Shown here: one piece after another, positions 3,620 through 9,509 of the stretch | Position numbering within the stretch: the stretch's first letter is position 1 | Layout: each line of letters starts with the position of its first letter | Source of the DNA: an uncultured Gemmatimonadota bacterium | Lineage (GTDB): Bacteria; Gemmatimonadota; Gemmatimonadetes; Gemmatimonadales; Gemmatimonadaceae | Assembly: GCA_902826615.1 (NCBI GenBank) | Contig: CADEFN010000002.1 | Span: 186,001-250,000, forward strand | Length of the DNA: 64,000 nucleotides | Direction of reading: 5' to 3' | Program-made: the position numbers and the translations under genes | The notes under the pieces: generated by a model | What the model was told of the DNA's origin: nothing | What the model saw: the letters and a program-made list of their open reading frames with translations, nothing else | The model's database searches: none

Positions 3620-4900
3620 ATGCGATTCCATACCTACAGCAAGTTCTCCCCCGAGTCGGCCGATGCCGTGGACCTGGAGGCGCTCCTGGAGCAGCTGAGT
3701 GACTTCCTGCTTCAGTCCGGTTTCGCGGGTGGGGCGAACTGGCATCCGTACTGGGGCGAAACGGGCGACGACGCCGACCGCTCACTCGACGCCCTCAAGG
3801 AAGCCATCCTCCAGGCGCTCATGGACTCGGGGCAGTTCACCCCCGAAATGCTCAAGGCACTGCGCGGCGAAGACGACGAAGAGGCCCAGCAATCCCTCGG
3901 CGAACTCCTCGACAAGATCGTGCAGCGGCTGATGGAGCAAGGCTACCTGAAGTTCGATGCCCCGCCGCAGATGCCGGACTCGCACCAGGAAGTCACGGGC
4001 CCGGGGGGGCTCGCCCGCGCCGCCGCACGCGACGTCCAGTTCTCGCTCACCGGCAAGGGGATCGACTTCCTGGGCTTCAAGGCCCTTCGCGGCATCCTCG
4101 GATCGTTAGGAAAAAGTTCGTTCGGGTCGCACGATACGCCGCACCTGGCCACCGGAGTCGAGGCCGACGCCGGCAGCAAACCCTACGAATTCGGCGACAC
4201 CCTCAACCTCGATGTGAACGCCACCCTCAGCAACACGCTGGCGCGCACGGGCTCACTCGAGGTGCCCCTCGATGTCGACTACCCCGACCTGATGGTGAAC
4301 CGGTCGGAGTACCGCTCCTCTTGTGCGACCGTCCTCATGCTCGACTGCTCGCACTCGATGATTCTCTACGGCGAGGATCGCTTTACCCCCGCCAAGAAGG
4401 TGGCGCTCGCCCTCACACATCTCATTCGCACGCAGTTTCCTGGTGACACCATTCGCGTGGTGCTTTTCCACGATGGCGCCGAAGAGATTCCCCTGGCCGC
4501 GCTGGCCCACGCCCAGGTGGGCCCGTACCACACCAACACCGCTGAGGGGCTCAAGCTGGCACGTCGCATTCTCATGGCGCAGAAAAAGGACATGCGGCAG
4601 ATCGTGATGATTACCGATGGCAAACCCAGTGCGCTCACCATGCCTAACGGTGAGACGTACAAGAACGCGATGGGGCTCGACGCGTACGTCATCAAGGAAA
4701 CGCTGCGCGAAGTGGCCGACTGCCGCCGGTCGGGGATCATGATCAACACCTTCATGCTCGCCCGCGACCGCGCCCTGATCGACTTTGTGAAACACGTGTC
4801 GGCCATCAGCCGCGGCAAGGCCTACTTCACCAACACCATGACCCTCGGGCAATACATCCTGATGGACTTCCTCAAGAAAAAGACCCGCAAGGTTTCGTGA
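3620..4900 (+). CDS. VWA-domain protein with intact MIDAS
   Basis: 426-residue cytosolic protein. ATG 3620 is preceded by GGAGG (3611-3615); the frame is open upstream to 3503 but that part lacks a ribosome site. An acidic, helical N-terminal half (about residues 10-110) precedes a von Willebrand factor A domain at about 235-420. MIDAS residues are visible: DCSHS (242-246), the Thr in HTNTAEG (about 304-310) and ITDGKPSA (331-338). The style matches VWA partners of MoxR-type AAA+ ATPases or Mg-chelatase-like systems, in which VWA proteins act as metal-dependent adaptors. No AAA+ gene is adjacent, so the partner is unknown. Monocistronic in appearance: divergent from the MFS gene and followed by a promoter and terminator-like element. 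Confidence 0.8.
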
Positions 4901-4921: not shown

Positions 4922-4950
4922 TTGACAGTTCGGGGCTCGGTGCCGATACT
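4922..4950 (+). promoter_or_regulatory. Strong sigma70-type promoter upstream of hom
   Basis: TTGACA at 4922-4927 is a perfect -35 box, followed after 17 bases by GATACT at 4945-4950 as -10 box. Transcription would start near 4957 and pass a leader of about 140 nt before the hom ATG at 5100. This is the best sigma70-type promoter I see in the window. Within the leader a direct repeat CGCTAAA occurs at 4999-5005 and 5010-5016, 11 bases apart (one helical turn). Confidence 0.65.
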
Positions 4951-5027
4951 CGTTGTCACAATCGAAAGCACGTGGCGATTTACGGCAACTTGCGACCACG
5001 CTAAATAAACGCTAAACAGCCCACTCG

Positions 5028-5057
5028 TCCCCGAGGCTATGCCGTCGGGGATTTTTT
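5028..5057 (+). terminator. Intrinsic terminator or attenuator in the hom leader
   Basis: TCCCCGA (5028-5034) pairs with TCGGGGA (5045-5051), with an extra GGC/GCC pair inside, and is directly followed by six T residues (5052-5057). This is a textbook Rho-independent terminator. It lies about 70 nt downstream of the predicted start of transcription and 43 bases before the hom ATG, so it can either end a short RNA of about 100 nt or attenuate hom expression. It could alternatively serve the VWA gene ending at 4900. I see no leader peptide rich in Thr, Ile or Met codons and no known riboswitch consensus. Confidence 0.65.
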
Positions 5058-5099
5058 GTTTCCGAGTTTCTCGGGGCGGGTGGACAGGAGAAACAGCTC

Positions 5100-6086
5100 A
5101 TGGCAGTCCCCGTCCTTCGTGTCGGGCTGATCGGCTACGGCACGGTCGGCCAGTCCTTCACCCACCACCTGAGCGCCGCCTCGGATCGGATCGCCGAGCG
5201 CCTGGGGGTGCGGCTCCAGCTCCACCGTGTCGCCGTCAAACACGCGGAGCGAGCCCGTCCATTCCTCCACGACGTCAAGCCGGGCAATGACCCGGTAGCG
5301 CTCGTGCAGGACCCGGCCATCGATCTCGTTGTTGAGGCCACGGGAGCCCACGAGGCGAGCGAGTGGCTCACCCTCGCACTGCGCCGCGGCATCCCGGCGA
5401 TTTCGGCAAACAAACAGGCCATTGCATCCAGCGATACCCTGCTGCGTGCCATCGCCGACCGGCATCCTCTCTTCCATTGCGAAGGCGCCGTGGCCGCCGC
5501 CATCCCCGTGATTCGCGCCCTGCGCGACTCGCTGGACGGTGAGGACATCCTCGACGTGCGTGGTGTGCTCAACGGCACGTCAACGTTTGTGCTCTCACAG
5601 GTGGAAACTGGCATTGCCTGGGAGGCGGCCCTGCGCGCCGCCGAAGAGGCGGGCTACGCCGAACGCAATGGCACCGACGACCTGGATGGGAGCGACGCCG
5701 CCGCCAAGCTCGCCATCCTCGCCACAACTGCCTGGCGCACCCCGCTCTCACGCGACCGCGTGGCCGTGCGCGGACTCGATGCACGAGCGGCGGCAACCGC
5801 TACCGCCGCGTTCGCCGAAGGACGCCGACTCCGGCTGGTGGCCGAAGGCTGGCTCAACGGCACGCCGCGACTGGTAGTGGAGCCCCGTGTGCTCGACGCC
5901 ACCGATCCACTCGCGTCGGTGAGTGGCGTGACAAACGGTGTAGAGCTGACCGCCGTGCTGGCGGGTCAGTTGCGCTGGTTCGGACCCGGCGCAGGTGGCG
6001 ATCACACGGCGTCGGCACTCCTCGGCGACGTGGCCGCCGCCGTGCGTGTGTTGCGGCACACCAGCGCACGGAGGGCCGCCGCATGA
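5100..6086 (+). CDS. hom: Homoserine dehydrogenase (short form)
   Basis: Cytosolic oxidoreductase converting aspartate semialdehyde and NAD(P)H to homoserine, the branch point to threonine and methionine. The N-terminal Rossmann motif GYGTVG is at residues 12-17; SANKQA lies near 102-107. The catalytic domain is shown by GVLNGTSTF and by the GYAERNGTDDLDGSDAAAKL segment, in which D199 and K203 match the catalytic Asp and Lys of the family. At 328 residues it lacks the C-terminal ACT domain, so allosteric threonine inhibition through ACT is not expected. AGGAG at 5086-5090 supports the ATG. The stop overlaps the thrC start (ATGA). No homoserine kinase (thrB) is present in the window. Confidence 0.93.
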   Translation: MAVPVLRVGLIGYGTVGQSFTHHLSAASDRIAERLGVRLQLHRVAVKHAERARPFLHDVKPGNDPVALVQDPAIDLVVEATGAHEASEWLTLALRRGIPAISANKQAIASSDTLLRAIADRHPLFHCEGAVAAAIPVIRALRDSLDGEDILDVRGVLNGTSTFVLSQVETGIAWEAALRAAEEAGYAERNGTDDLDGSDAAAKLAILATTAWRTPLSRDRVAVRGLDARAAATATAAFAEGRRLRLVAEGWLNGTPRLVVEPRVLDATDPLASVSGVTNGVELTAVLAGQLRWFGPGAGGDHTASALLGDVAAAVRVLRHTSARRAAA

Positions 6087-7324
6087 CCGCCCTCGCGCCC
6101 AGTGCGATCACCGCCCACCCACTCGCCTGCCTCAACTGCGGCAAGACGCATGACGCGCCACGCCCCGCCGCCGTGTGCGAGAGCTGCCTCGGCCCGCTCG
6201 ACGTCGTGTACCCCGCCGATCGCGTGTTACCGGATCGCGAGACTATCAGCGCGCGTCCACATGCGCTCTGGCGCTACCGCGAATGGCTCCCGTTTGTGGG
6301 AGAGCCGGTCGCGGCAACCGACATCGGCTGGACACCATTGCGCGAGGCGCCGCGAGTGGCGTCGGCGTTAGGTGTGCGCCGAGTCTGGCTCAAGATCGAC
6401 GCCCTCTCCAGTGGCACGCTGTCGTTCAAGGACCGCGTGGTGGCCACCGCCATCAACGCCGTGCACGCCTTTGGGCTCGACGCCATCGCCTGCGCCTCCA
6501 CGGGGAACCTCGCCAACGCCGTCGCGGCCGCCGCCGCACGCGAAGGAATCCCGGCCTGGATTTTTGTGCCCGAAGACCTCGAAGTGGCCAAGCTGGTCGG
6601 CACGCTGGTGTACAACCCGCGGCTCGTTCGAGTGCGCGGCACTTACGACGATGTCAATCGGCTCTGCGCGCAGCTCGCCGACGAATACGCCTGGGGCATC
6701 GCCAACGTGAACCTGCGCGCCTACTACGGCGAAGGCTCCAAGACCATGGCCTTCGAAATCGCTGAGCAACTCGGATGGCGCCTGCCTACAGCGGTGGTGG
6801 CCCCCATGGCTGGCGGGTCCCTCGTGACCAAACTGCGAAAGGGATTTGGCGAGTTCCTGTCGGCCGGACTGGTGCAGGGATCGTCTCCGCGGGTGTATGG
6901 CGCACAGGCGTCCGGGTGCGCACCGATTGTCCGTCTGGTGGAACGTGGTGAAGGGCCACTGATCCCCGAACGCCCTGACACCATCGCCCGCTCTCTTGCC
7001 ATCGGGAATCCGGCCGACGGGCTCGCCGCGGCTCGTATTCTGCGCGAGAGTGGTGGTGGTGCTGCCCACGTCAGCGACGACGAGCTGCGCGACGGTATTC
7101 GCGAACTCGCTGCCCTGACGGGTGTCTTTGGCGAAACGGCGGCCGGGGTCACCTACGCTGCGGCGAAAGCGCTCGCGGCACGCGGCGCTTTGTCACCCGA
7201 CGACGAAGTGGTCCTCTGCATTACCGGCAACGGTCTCAAGACGGCCGAGTCGCTGGTGCACGACCTCAAGAACGTACCGATCATCGCCCCGCGGCTGCGC
7301 GAAGTCGCGGCGCTGGTATCCTGA
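6083..7324 (+). CDS. thrC: Threonine synthase-like PLP enzyme
   Basis: 413-residue fold-type II PLP enzyme; family reaction O-phosphohomoserine to threonine plus phosphate. An N-terminal zinc-ribbon pattern (C17-x2-C20 and C32-x2-C35) is followed by the PLP-lysine motif SFKDR (114-118, K116) and the cofactor-phosphate loop ASTGNLANA (138-146), as in bacterial ThrC. ATG overlaps the hom stop by 4 bases, so translation is coupled. Because the next genes encode a CysO-like sulfur carrier and its activating enzyme, an alternative activity as a protein-thiocarboxylate-dependent sulfhydrylase acting on O-phosphohomoserine or a related ester should be kept open; the sequence alone favours threonine synthase. 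Confidence 0.88.
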   Translation: MTALAPSAITAHPLACLNCGKTHDAPRPAAVCESCLGPLDVVYPADRVLPDRETISARPHALWRYREWLPFVGEPVAATDIGWTPLREAPRVASALGVRRVWLKIDALSSGTLSFKDRVVATAINAVHAFGLDAIACASTGNLANAVAAAAAREGIPAWIFVPEDLEVAKLVGTLVYNPRLVRVRGTYDDVNRLCAQLADEYAWGIANVNLRAYYGEGSKTMAFEIAEQLGWRLPTAVVAPMAGGSLVTKLRKGFGEFLSAGLVQGSSPRVYGAQASGCAPIVRLVERGEGPLIPERPDTIARSLAIGNPADGLAAARILRESGGGAAHVSDDELRDGIRELAALTGVFGETAAGVTYAAAKALAARGALSPDDEVVLCITGNGLKTAESLVHDLKNVPIIAPRLREVAALVS

Positions 7325-7351: not shown

Positions 7352-7627
7352 ATGCCCATACAGATCTCGCTCCCTTCCGCCCTTGCTACGCAGACCAATG
7401 GCCAGCGGAAACTCCAGGCCGACGGTGCCACCGTTGGCGAAGTGCTCGACCACCTCGTGGCACAGTACCCGTCCGTGGGGCCACGCCTCCGCGACGAACA
7501 GGGTGCGCTCTATCCCTTTGTCACGGTGTACCTCAACGACGAAGACATCCGCTTTGCCGGCGGATTTGCTGCCCCGGTGGCCGATCGCGATGAACTCGTG
7601 ATCGTGCCGGCAGTTGCGGGAGGTTAG
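7352..7627 (+). CDS. Ubiquitin-like sulfur carrier protein, CysO/MoaD/ThiS family
   Basis: 91-residue beta-grasp protein ending in the di-glycine tail PAVAGG needed for adenylation and thiocarboxylation. The segment LNDEDIRFAGG and the ending IVPAVAGG are closer, from memory, to mycobacterial CysO (VNDEDVRFSGG, ILPAVAGG) than to MoaD or ThiS. Family knowledge: the C-terminal thiocarboxylate delivers sulfur for cysteine (CysO), molybdopterin (MoaD), thiazole (ThiS) or homocysteine (HcyS). It sits 27 bases after thrC and 4 bases before its likely activating enzyme, which argues for a role in sulfur amino-acid synthesis. No CysM or Mec/JAMM protease gene is next to it. Confidence 0.85.
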   Translation: MPIQISLPSALATQTNGQRKLQADGATVGEVLDHLVAQYPSVGPRLRDEQGALYPFVTVYLNDEDIRFAGGFAAPVADRDELVIVPAVAGG

Positions 7628-7631
7628 GCCA

Positions 7632-8807
7632 ATGACCGCGACCCTCTCCGAACCGGTGGCCGCCACCGATCCTGCAGCCCTGTCGCACAACGAACTGGTG
7701 CGCTACAGCCGCCACCTCTTGCTTCCCGAAGTTGGTATCGAGGGACAGCGCAAGCTGAAGGCCGCCCGCGTGCTCCTGATCGGGGCCGGCGGGCTGGGCT
7801 CGCCAGCCGCGCTCTATCTCGCCGCGGCCGGCGTCGGTACTCTGGGTATTGTCGACTTCGATGTTGTGGACGTCACCAACCTGCAACGCCAGATCCTGCA
7901 CGGCACCAGCGATGTCGGGCGTTCCAAGCTGGCCTCGGCTATTGACCGGCTGCGCGAGATCAACCCGCACGTGACCGTCGAAGCACACGACGAGCGCTTC
8001 ACGTCGGCCAATGCCCTGCAGCTCGTTGCCAGGTACGACCTGGTGGTGGATGGCACGGACAACTTTGCCACGCGCTACCTCGTCAACGATGCCTGCGTCC
8101 TCTCAGGCGTGCCTAACGTGTACGGATCGATCTTCCGCTTTGATGGACAGGCCTCGGTCTTCTGCACCGACGAGGGGCCGTGTTATCGCTGCCTCTACCC
8201 CGACCCGCCCCCTCCAGGACTTGTGCCGAGTTGCGCCGAAGGTGGGGTGCTCGGAGTCCTCCCGGGACTGGTGGGCACGCTGCAGGCCACTGAAGCGATC
8301 AAGCTGATCCTGGGCATTGGCGAGCCACTCATCGGACGGCTCGCCCTGGTCGACGCACTGGGCGCGCAATGGCGCACCATGAAGGTGCGGCGCAATCCGA
8401 AGTGCCCGGCCTGCGGCACCCGAGAACTCAAGGCACTGATTGACTACGACCAGTTCTGCGGGATCGCCAAGCCGGTGGTGGAGACGCCGGTACCCGAGAT
8501 CACCCCGCGCGAACTTGCCGAGAAAATCGAGCGTCGCGACGACTTTTTGCTCATTGATGTGCGCGAACCCCATGAAGCCGAGATCGCACGAATTCCCGGC
8601 GCGGAGCTTATTCCGCTCGCTACACTTGGTGACGCCATTCCGGCGCTCCCACGTGAGCGCGACATCGTGGTGCAGTGCCGAAGTGGCGCACGGAGCGGCA
8701 AGGCGGTGCGTCAGCTGCAGGCCGCCGGGTTCTATCGGGTGTGGAATCTGGCTGGGGGCATTCTGCGATGGTCGGACGACGTTGACCCATCGGTCGCGAA
8801 GTACTGA
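7632..8807 (+). CDS. Adenylyltransferase-sulfurtransferase (ThiF/MoeB domain plus rhodanese), MoeZ-like
   Basis: About 391 residues. ATG 7632 is chosen because GGGAGG lies at 7618-7623; the frame is open to 7614 through a TTG. The E1-like domain shows the ATP loop GAGGLGSPAALYLA and the following DFDVVDVTNLQRQ, plus zinc-type cysteines CYRC and CPAC. The C-terminal rhodanese domain (about 285-390) carries the active loop CRSGAR with the persulfide Cys at about residue 349. Family knowledge: activates the C-terminal glycine of a carrier as acyl-adenylate and converts it to thiocarboxylate; MoeZ serves CysO and MoaD in mycobacteria. Partner by context is the carrier encoded 4 bases upstream. 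Confidence 0.9.
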   Translation: MTATLSEPVAATDPAALSHNELVRYSRHLLLPEVGIEGQRKLKAARVLLIGAGGLGSPAALYLAAAGVGTLGIVDFDVVDVTNLQRQILHGTSDVGRSKLASAIDRLREINPHVTVEAHDERFTSANALQLVARYDLVVDGTDNFATRYLVNDACVLSGVPNVYGSIFRFDGQASVFCTDEGPCYRCLYPDPPPPGLVPSCAEGGVLGVLPGLVGTLQATEAIKLILGIGEPLIGRLALVDALGAQWRTMKVRRNPKCPACGTRELKALIDYDQFCGIAKPVVETPVPEITPRELAEKIERRDDFLLIDVREPHEAEIARIPGAELIPLATLGDAIPALPRERDIVVQCRSGARSGKAVRQLQAAGFYRVWNLAGGILRWSDDVDPSVAKY

Positions 8808-8882
8808 CTGAGTCCTGGGTGGTGGGAAGTGGCGAGGTCACGCTATGTCCCCACCACCAACAGGTCTATCTTTGCCGACGTG

Positions 8883-9509
8883 ATGAATGCGGCTTCGCTT
8901 CTCGCGCTCGGCTTTCTCCTGGGCATGCGCCACGCGCTCGACCCCGACCACCTGGTGGCCGTGTCAGCGATTGTGGCGCGTCACCCATCGCCAAAGCGTG
9001 CCGCGGGCGTAGGCGTTCTCTGGGGTTTGGGCCACAGCCTTACCGTCTTGGTGCTCGGCGGCATCATCGTCTGGTTCAAGGTGGCCGTCTCCGACCAGGC
9101 GTCGGCGGCACTCGAGCTGGGAGTGGCTGCCATGCTGGTGTGGCTTGGTTTTGCCAACCTGCGCACCCCGGCCAGCCCAGCGGCCGCCTCGGCGTCCAGG
9201 CCACTGCTCGTTGGCATGATGCATGGCTTCGCGGGATCGGCGGCGGTAGCGCTGCTGGTGCTGGCGACCGTGACTGACTCGCGCTGGGCGTTAGGCTACC
9301 TCGCCTTGTTCGGCGTGGGCACCATTGCCGGGATGACACTCGCCACCTCGGCGATCGCTGTTCCGATGGCAGCAGCCTCCGAACGGTTTGGGGCGATCCG
9401 GGAGCGGCTGGTCACGATGTCGGGAGTGGCCAGCATCGCCTTTGGCGCATGGCTCGCCTTCTCCCTTGTCCAGGATAGCGGGCTCCTGACCGGTGGCGCG
9501 CGGCACTAA
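8883..9509 (+). CDS. NicO/UreH-like membrane transporter (nickel/cobalt type)
   Basis: About 208-residue inner-membrane protein with six hydrophobic segments. The first segment has GMRHALDPDHLVAVSA, the H-x4-D type metal motif of the NiCoT/UreH/RcnA group, and a second membrane motif LWGLGHSLTVL follows near residue 50. Family knowledge: transport of Ni or Co ions; no urease or hydrogenase genes are nearby, so the substrate is uncertain. I prefer ATG 8883 to the upstream frame start at 8829 because the membrane segment begins right after it. The end overlaps the start of mutY by 17 bases. Confidence 0.75.
   Translation: MNAASLLALGFLLGMRHALDPDHLVAVSAIVARHPSPKRAAGVGVLWGLGHSLTVLVLGGIIVWFKVAVSDQASAALELGVAAMLVWLGFANLRTPASPAAASASRPLLVGMMHGFAGSAAVALLVLATVTDSRWALGYLALFGVGTIAGMTLATSAIAVPMAAASERFGAIRERLVTMSGVASIAFGAWLAFSLVQDSGLLTGGARH

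Follow-up and report, generated by a model that had tools for sequence, protein, structure and literature searches.

A predicted SAM-II attenuator in front of a hom operon of probable methionine function in an uncultured Gemmatimonadota bacterium

The window, by which we mean the whole 64,000-nucleotide stretch of DNA analysed here, comes from the genome of an uncultured member of the Gemmatimonadaceae and carries a short leader followed by four closely spaced genes, of which hom is the first (Table 1). The first-pass annotation of this DNA had described the layout as that of an attenuator or a riboswitch, with a promoter, a leader of about 100 nt, a hairpin with its U-tract, and then hom; all of these elements are in place, including the ribosome-binding site that it had seen before the ATG of hom, and the product of hom passes the NF004976 cut-off. 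The ThrC homologue encoded by the second gene adjoins a sulfur carrier ending in GG, as in the MetM/MetO pathway; chain C of 3dwg, one of the structures matched by the carrier, we take to be CysO. The order of hom, ThrC-like gene, carrier gene and moeZ is kept in 8 of 9 relatives. The relative G158 (locus L181) has moeZ directly after hom, without the ThrC-like and carrier genes between them.

Table 1. Features of the leader and the operon, in window coordinates.
Feature	Position	Strand	Basis or detail
Sigma-70 type promoter, TTGACA-17-GATACT	4922-4950	+	TTGACA 4922-4927, 17 nt, GATACT 4945-4950; 10/12 consensus matches; position kept in relatives' hom leaders
SAM-II (SAM_alpha, RF00521) aptamer, predicted	4968-5024	+	model R1 55.5 bits; RF00521 28.1 bits
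P1 helix	4971-5000	+	CGUGG 4971-4975 with CCACG 4996-5000
P2 pseudoknot	4984-5021	+	G4984-C5021, G4985-C5020, C4986-G5019, G4992-C5012, C4993-G5011
Proposed antiterminator	4982-5045	+	ACGGCA 4982-4987 with UGCCGU 5040-5045
Intrinsic terminator	5027-5057	+	stem 5027-5037/5041-5052, U-tract 5052-5057
Possible long-range helix of the read-through leader	5021-5083	+	5021-5035 with 5070-5083, just 5' of the Shine-Dalgarno sequence
Shine-Dalgarno sequence AGGAG of hom	5086-5090	+	sequence
hom, homoserine dehydrogenase	5100-6086	+	NF004976 260 bits (cut-off 205); PF00742 154.6 bits
Threonine-synthase-like PLP enzyme	6083-7324	+	TIGR00260 227.8 bits; 4-nt overlap with hom
Ubiquitin-like sulfur carrier, CysO/MetO-like, C-terminal GG	7352-7627	+	3dwg_C 80.6 bits; 4n6e_B 78.5 bits
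MoeZ-type adenylyltransferase/sulfurtransferase	7632-8807 (start 7614 or 7632)	+	ThiF and rhodanese domains; NF005902 509.4 bits

The leader was at first taken to hold no known riboswitch pattern, so that any sensing element in it would be new, and a search of the window at the curated Rfam cut-offs indeed gives zero matches. Under a relaxed search of the 221-nt leader, SAM-II (RF00521) is the best match, full length over 4962-5036, with 28.1 bits and an E value of 9e-5. This is below the curated cut-off of 36 bits, which is set for searching and is not itself a feature of the riboswitch. Two other sub-threshold matches in the leader, terC (22.2 bits, E 0.087) and Corona_pk3 (E 2.3), were taken as chance. 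A covariance search of the relatives' hom leaders, as the first-pass annotation had suggested, was informative: the leaders of all nine orthologues match RF00521 (31.8-52.1 bits), seven of them above the cut-off (38.2-52.1 bits) and the other two at 35.2 and 31.8 bits, and among the ten hom leaders the window's own ranks last. We also built a phylum-specific covariance model, R1, from 60 SAM-II aptamers drawn at random from 119 eligible ones. None of them comes from the genus of the window, and the set includes four hom leaders (L014 and L040-L042) from two further genera. R1 finds 4968-5024 with an E value of 1e-11 in the 64 kb, the next best match having 8.6 bits.

The pairing within the aptamer points the same way. 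All five P1 pairs are present in the window and in 10/10 hom leaders; a sixth position, C4976-A4995, is a mismatch in the window, where the 60 aptamers of other genera have C-G or U-G. The predicted P2, which joins the P1 loop with the 3' tail, can form five Watson-Crick pairs in the window, and the four P2 pairs that were counted are formed in 98.3-100% of cells in the 60 aptamers. For P1 and P2 together, pairing is seen in 99.7% of 600 cells; with the partners slid, the figure is 16-55%. There is one compensatory cell in the 600, the covariation being slight because both helices are nearly invariant. The conserved AUUU (4978-4981), UUGC (4990-4993) and GCUAAA (5011-5016), placed by alignment to R1, are all intact, and single residues of the conserved elements in the P2 region presumably have the predicted role of ligand contacts. 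It is the combination of the orthologous leaders, the R1 match and the P1/P2 pairing that raises SAM-II from a lead to an identification: judged by these sequence and structure models, 4968-5024 is a SAM-II riboswitch aptamer, with SAM binding as its predicted function. The leader thus belongs to a known type of switch, contrary to the early impression of a new one. The direct repeat of CGCTAAA also finds its place here. The two copies, eleven bases apart (4999-5005 and 5010-5016), do exist as described, but they are not conserved as a repeat, since most relatives have CGTTAAA or CGTAAAA as the first copy and GCTAAA as the second; the idea of a site of its own was dropped, and the two copies are different parts of one aptamer.

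SAM-II aptamers are common in this phylum. Searches with RF00521 gave matches over the cut-off in 145 of the 179 family genomes and in 221 of the 395 for the phylum Gemmatimonadota, each time with none among 14 control genomes; the closest named hom loci, 49-66% identical, are those of Gemmatimonadetes/Gemmatimonadaceae MAGs. The genome of the window has a second SAM-II aptamer (L001), which is over the cut-off at 39.8 bits and lies 5' of metH. Genes of the methionine and SAM pathways lie behind these aptamers: hom in the window, and metH, metF, metX, metY and metK in the genome or the family. A downstream ORF is present in 133 of 136 leaders collected by a regular expression (leaders that do not fit it are uncounted), and the first ORFs cluster as metH (36), metF (26) and hom (10), although some are in wrong reading frames. 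Among the smaller groups, named through their profile-scanned representatives, are OAH sulfhydrylase, MetX, MetK, aspartate kinase, PanB, an aminotransferase and a nitrite-reductase-like protein. Individual leaders stand 5' of panB (L011), a nitrite-reductase-like gene (L252) and an aspartate kinase gene (L229). In another genus of the family (L046-L048, L054 and L055) SAM-II lies some way 5' of hom, and in L046 metX sits between the two, in place of the ThrC-like route. We found no publication joining the SAM-II riboswitch with Gemmatimon* among the open-licence papers searched. What matters here is that the Rfam model under-scores some SAM-II members in a phylum where they are common, and that an apparently new leader turns out to be a known switch.

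As compared with the known SAM-II (the metA motif), the leader has P1, AUUU, UUGC, GCUAAA and the P2 pseudoknot in the same order and spacing, a terminator 3' of P2, and genes of the methionine pathway behind it. The excerpted text of PMC1273637 likewise mentions putative terminators after many SAM-II representatives. The leader differs in its score below the Rfam cut-off and in its target operon, which codes for MoeZ besides a ThrC-like enzyme and a CysO-like carrier; Gemmatimonadota also lie outside the groups named in the excerpted literature (Proteobacteria and Bacteroidetes). The position 5' of hom has a counterpart in Hyphomonadaceae, where, according to the part of PMC4239095 that was available, SAM_alpha precedes hom-metXC; there metX and metC come after hom, whereas in the window hom is followed by the ThrC-like enzyme and the sulfur carrier. 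Another parallel is metZ of Sinorhizobium meliloti, whose SAM-II attenuator, in the excerpt of PMC9373788, gives rise to the sRNA RZ. SAM-II and an intrinsic terminator are common to both, and a short RNA bearing the aptamer is the terminated product predicted for the window; the gene and the phylum are different, and the switch of the window is predicted from its sequence.

The promoter hexamers claimed in the first-pass annotation are present as described. Their score by itself is near chance, with 2 such sites in 12 kb against 1.5 expected, and the call is supported instead by conservation: by eye, a TTGxxx hexamer lies at about the same distance 5' of the aptamer in 10/10 hom leaders (the window and nine relatives), and a recognisable -10 element at matching spacing in 9 of them. 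The conserved promoter and its spacing argue for a start 5' of the aptamer, which we infer to be near 4957. The order of promoter, aptamer, terminator and operon is conserved. The terminator is established by folding. It is a hairpin of 11 bp that a simple terminator scan did not pick up; its folding energy is -18.2 kcal/mol (z -3.6), and 1 of 200 shuffled sequences folds as well. It had been called perfect, and while the hairpin and the U-tract are real, the stem contains one bulged G. Across the collected leaders, 121 of 136 have a T-rich run 18-90 nt 3' of the aptamer.

These elements very probably make up a SAM-II OFF switch that controls the hom operon by transcription attenuation, through a SAM-dependent choice between terminator and antiterminator. 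The RNA would begin near 4957 and its aptamer would fold. With SAM bound, the P2 pseudoknot would hold GGC (4984-4986) against GCC (5019-5021), so that the terminator hairpin (5027-5052) could form and polymerase would stop at the U-tract, leaving an RNA of about 100 nt. When SAM is low, ACGGCA would capture the emerging UGCCGU and delay the terminator, and polymerase would go on to transcribe hom and the three genes after it, down to moeZ. What we infer from this arrangement is that the aptamer binds SAM, that the antiterminator is the competing state, and that read-through takes place.

The proposed antiterminator is exclusive both with P2 and with the terminator, whose 3' side contains UGCCGU. 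Across the ten hom leaders this helix is formed in 55 of 60 cells, and the pair 4987/5040 is A-U in eight and G-C in two; in the relative G159 the helix is partly lost. In other leaders the aptamer segment and its partner both differ, as in GGAGGC/GCCUCC, GCCGCC/GGCGGC and GCCGCG/CGCGGC. For a broader comparison, leaving out 15 that lack a T-run and 11 near-duplicates brought the 136 collected leaders down to 110 distinct ones. The complementarity between the P2 5' strand region and the terminator of the same leader was 14.47, as compared with 11.67 for between-class swaps (Wilcoxon 2e-11, a p value that ignores relatedness). The excess is strongest in the classes GAGGC, GCCGCC and GCCGC. As a whole it is small (12.5 against 11.4) in the CGGC class, which has 24 leaders including most of the hom leaders and a median fraction of swaps as good of 0.45; for the window leader alone this fraction is 0.02. 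The P2b pairing length alone is barely above swaps (2.83 against 2.64). In folding calculations the antiterminator has a probability of 0.90 in a nascent window RNA ending at 5046. Once the RNA extends to 5048 or beyond, the equilibrium favours the terminator, whether the aptamer is locked or unlocked; the locked state excludes the antiterminator by construction. The switching must therefore be kinetic, a matter of timing. A pairing common to so many leaders is testable.

There are other ways to read the same leader. An antiterminator formed by the 3' strand of P2 is unlikely, although it can be drawn: AGCC (5018-5021) would pair with GGCU (5035-5038), optionally with CUCG (5024-5027) and CGAG (5032-5035) added. 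Comparable pairings are AAAAGCC/GGCUUUU in G158, similar ones by eye in G083 and G157, and GCGCC/GGCGC in several other leaders. Over the 110 leaders, however, this complementarity is not above that of swaps (13.15 against 12.70, p 0.42), and its probability in the nascent window RNA is at most 0.33. Somewhat less probable still is that the aptamer mainly controls translation of hom or RNA stability, with a partly constitutive terminator, a reading with a precedent in the incoherent regulation of Sinorhizobium metA described in the excerpt of PMC9373788. It draws on the long-range helix beside the Shine-Dalgarno sequence, which is matched by 0-5 of 300 shuffles in four leaders of the window's genus, the window's own included, and by 6 of 300 in G079 and 13 of 300 in G083. 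Yet the Shine-Dalgarno sequence lies 65 nt past the last P2 base and outside P2; the helix is marginal in G158 and does not beat shuffles in G159, G157 and G109 (43-112 of 300 in these four); and its own partners, at -26.2 kcal/mol, hardly do better than swapped ones at -25.1. In the read-through leader the helix may add a translational layer to the attenuation.

The hairpin could also end transcripts of the gene for a VWA-domain protein (window 3620-4900) that lies 5' of the leader, since this gene is conserved upstream; by tblastn it is present in 8 of 9 relatives' loci, and the sequence of the ninth (L040) reaches only about 147 nt 5' of the leader. One could then suppose that the terminator is independent of SAM and the aptamer decayed, the window having the lowest of the ten scores. 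We consider this very improbable, with the five P1 pairs, the P2 pairs and the three conserved motifs all intact. That the hairpin might be conserved merely as the end of the VWA gene was examined, and is not what was found: the aptamer-terminator unit also stands 5' of metH in this genome and, in relatives, of metF, metX, metY and further genes. The idea that we credit least, a new amino-acid sensing element or a leader-peptide attenuator, goes back to the first-pass impression and agrees with the zero matches at Rfam cut-offs; against it stands the SAM-II identity. Leader-peptide attenuation was rejected for want of a suitable peptide. The annotation had rightly seen none rich in Thr, Ile or Met codons, the frame from GTG 4972 being ten residues long, without Thr or internal Met.

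A SAM switch 5' of a 'thrC' suggests that the gene serves methionine rather than threonine synthesis. Plants are known to carry out transsulfuration from O-phosphohomoserine, and in Streptomyces homocysteine is reportedly made from the same compound by MetM and MetO, work ascribed to Hasebe in 2024. According to the excerpt of PMC12172450 (citing Hasebe 2024), MetM of Streptomyces albulus is a ThrC homologue with the carrier MetO, under a SAM riboswitch. With the system in that excerpt the window shares a SAM riboswitch ahead of a ThrC-like enzyme and, after the enzyme, a sulfur carrier; unlike it, the locus here has SAM-II, hom in front and moeZ behind, and an activity that is predicted. The likeness to S. 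albulus MetM is drawn from that partial description and through homologues in Nonomuraea and Armatimonadota. A ThrC-like/CysO-like pair in Nonomuraea, whose members are 44% and 41% identical to those of the window, has a SAM-I riboswitch (68.7 bits) 5' of it; this Nonomuraea gerenzanensis locus (L289) is on an 11.85-Mb record filed as a plasmid in PLSDB. An Armatimonadota contig has the ThrC-like gene, the carrier and hom side by side, with no Rfam match at cut-off. Compared against four conventional thrC, the ThrC-like protein of the window groups with these homologues, which also adjoin carriers (support 0.999). Elsewhere in the genome of the window there are a separate thrA-thrB (L177) and a further thrC, of the E. 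coli type (L163).

With the carrier pairing, the Nonomuraea pair under SAM-I, the grouping and the separate threonine genes, the operon is most likely of the MetM/MetO type. The gene at 6083-7324 is, by its sequence, probably a MetM-type homocysteine synthase, and the hom operon is probably dedicated to methionine, making homocysteine by a MetM/MetO-like sulfur-carrier route. A threonine role for the ThrC-like gene, alongside the separate thrA-thrB and thrC, is possible. The genome was also searched for the usual acyltransferases. No MetA (PF04204) was found, and the best genome match to MetX, which by eye resembles a secreted alpha/beta hydrolase, has 104.7 bits against a cut-off of 500 bits; the MetX of a relative reaches 239 bits with that model. 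Enzymes of the cystathionine-synthase/lyase type are present, so transsulfuration from O-phosphohomoserine is a possibility too. We lean slightly towards the fuller proposal that SAM-II governs a complete methionine-dedicated homocysteine route, which would run from aspartate semialdehyde through homoserine to O-phosphohomoserine, take its sulfur from a protein thiocarboxylate and replace MetX/MetA; its genes would be hom and those for the MetM-like enzyme, the MetO/CysO-like carrier and MoeZ. If this is true, many 'thrC' genes beside a small ubiquitin-like protein encode homocysteine synthases and can be told by the SAM switch that precedes them (SAM-II here, SAM-I in actinomycetes), and looking for a SAM switch before 'thrC' would be an easy way to find MetM/MetO-type pathways in genomes.

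Further along, 3' of moeZ, a gene at 8829-9509 encodes a membrane protein that gave no NCBIfam match at 1e-30 and, by eye, resembles nickel/cobalt transporters. A similar gene lies 3' of moeZ in G152, G153 and G083, and the supply of cobalt for MetH would fit as its role.
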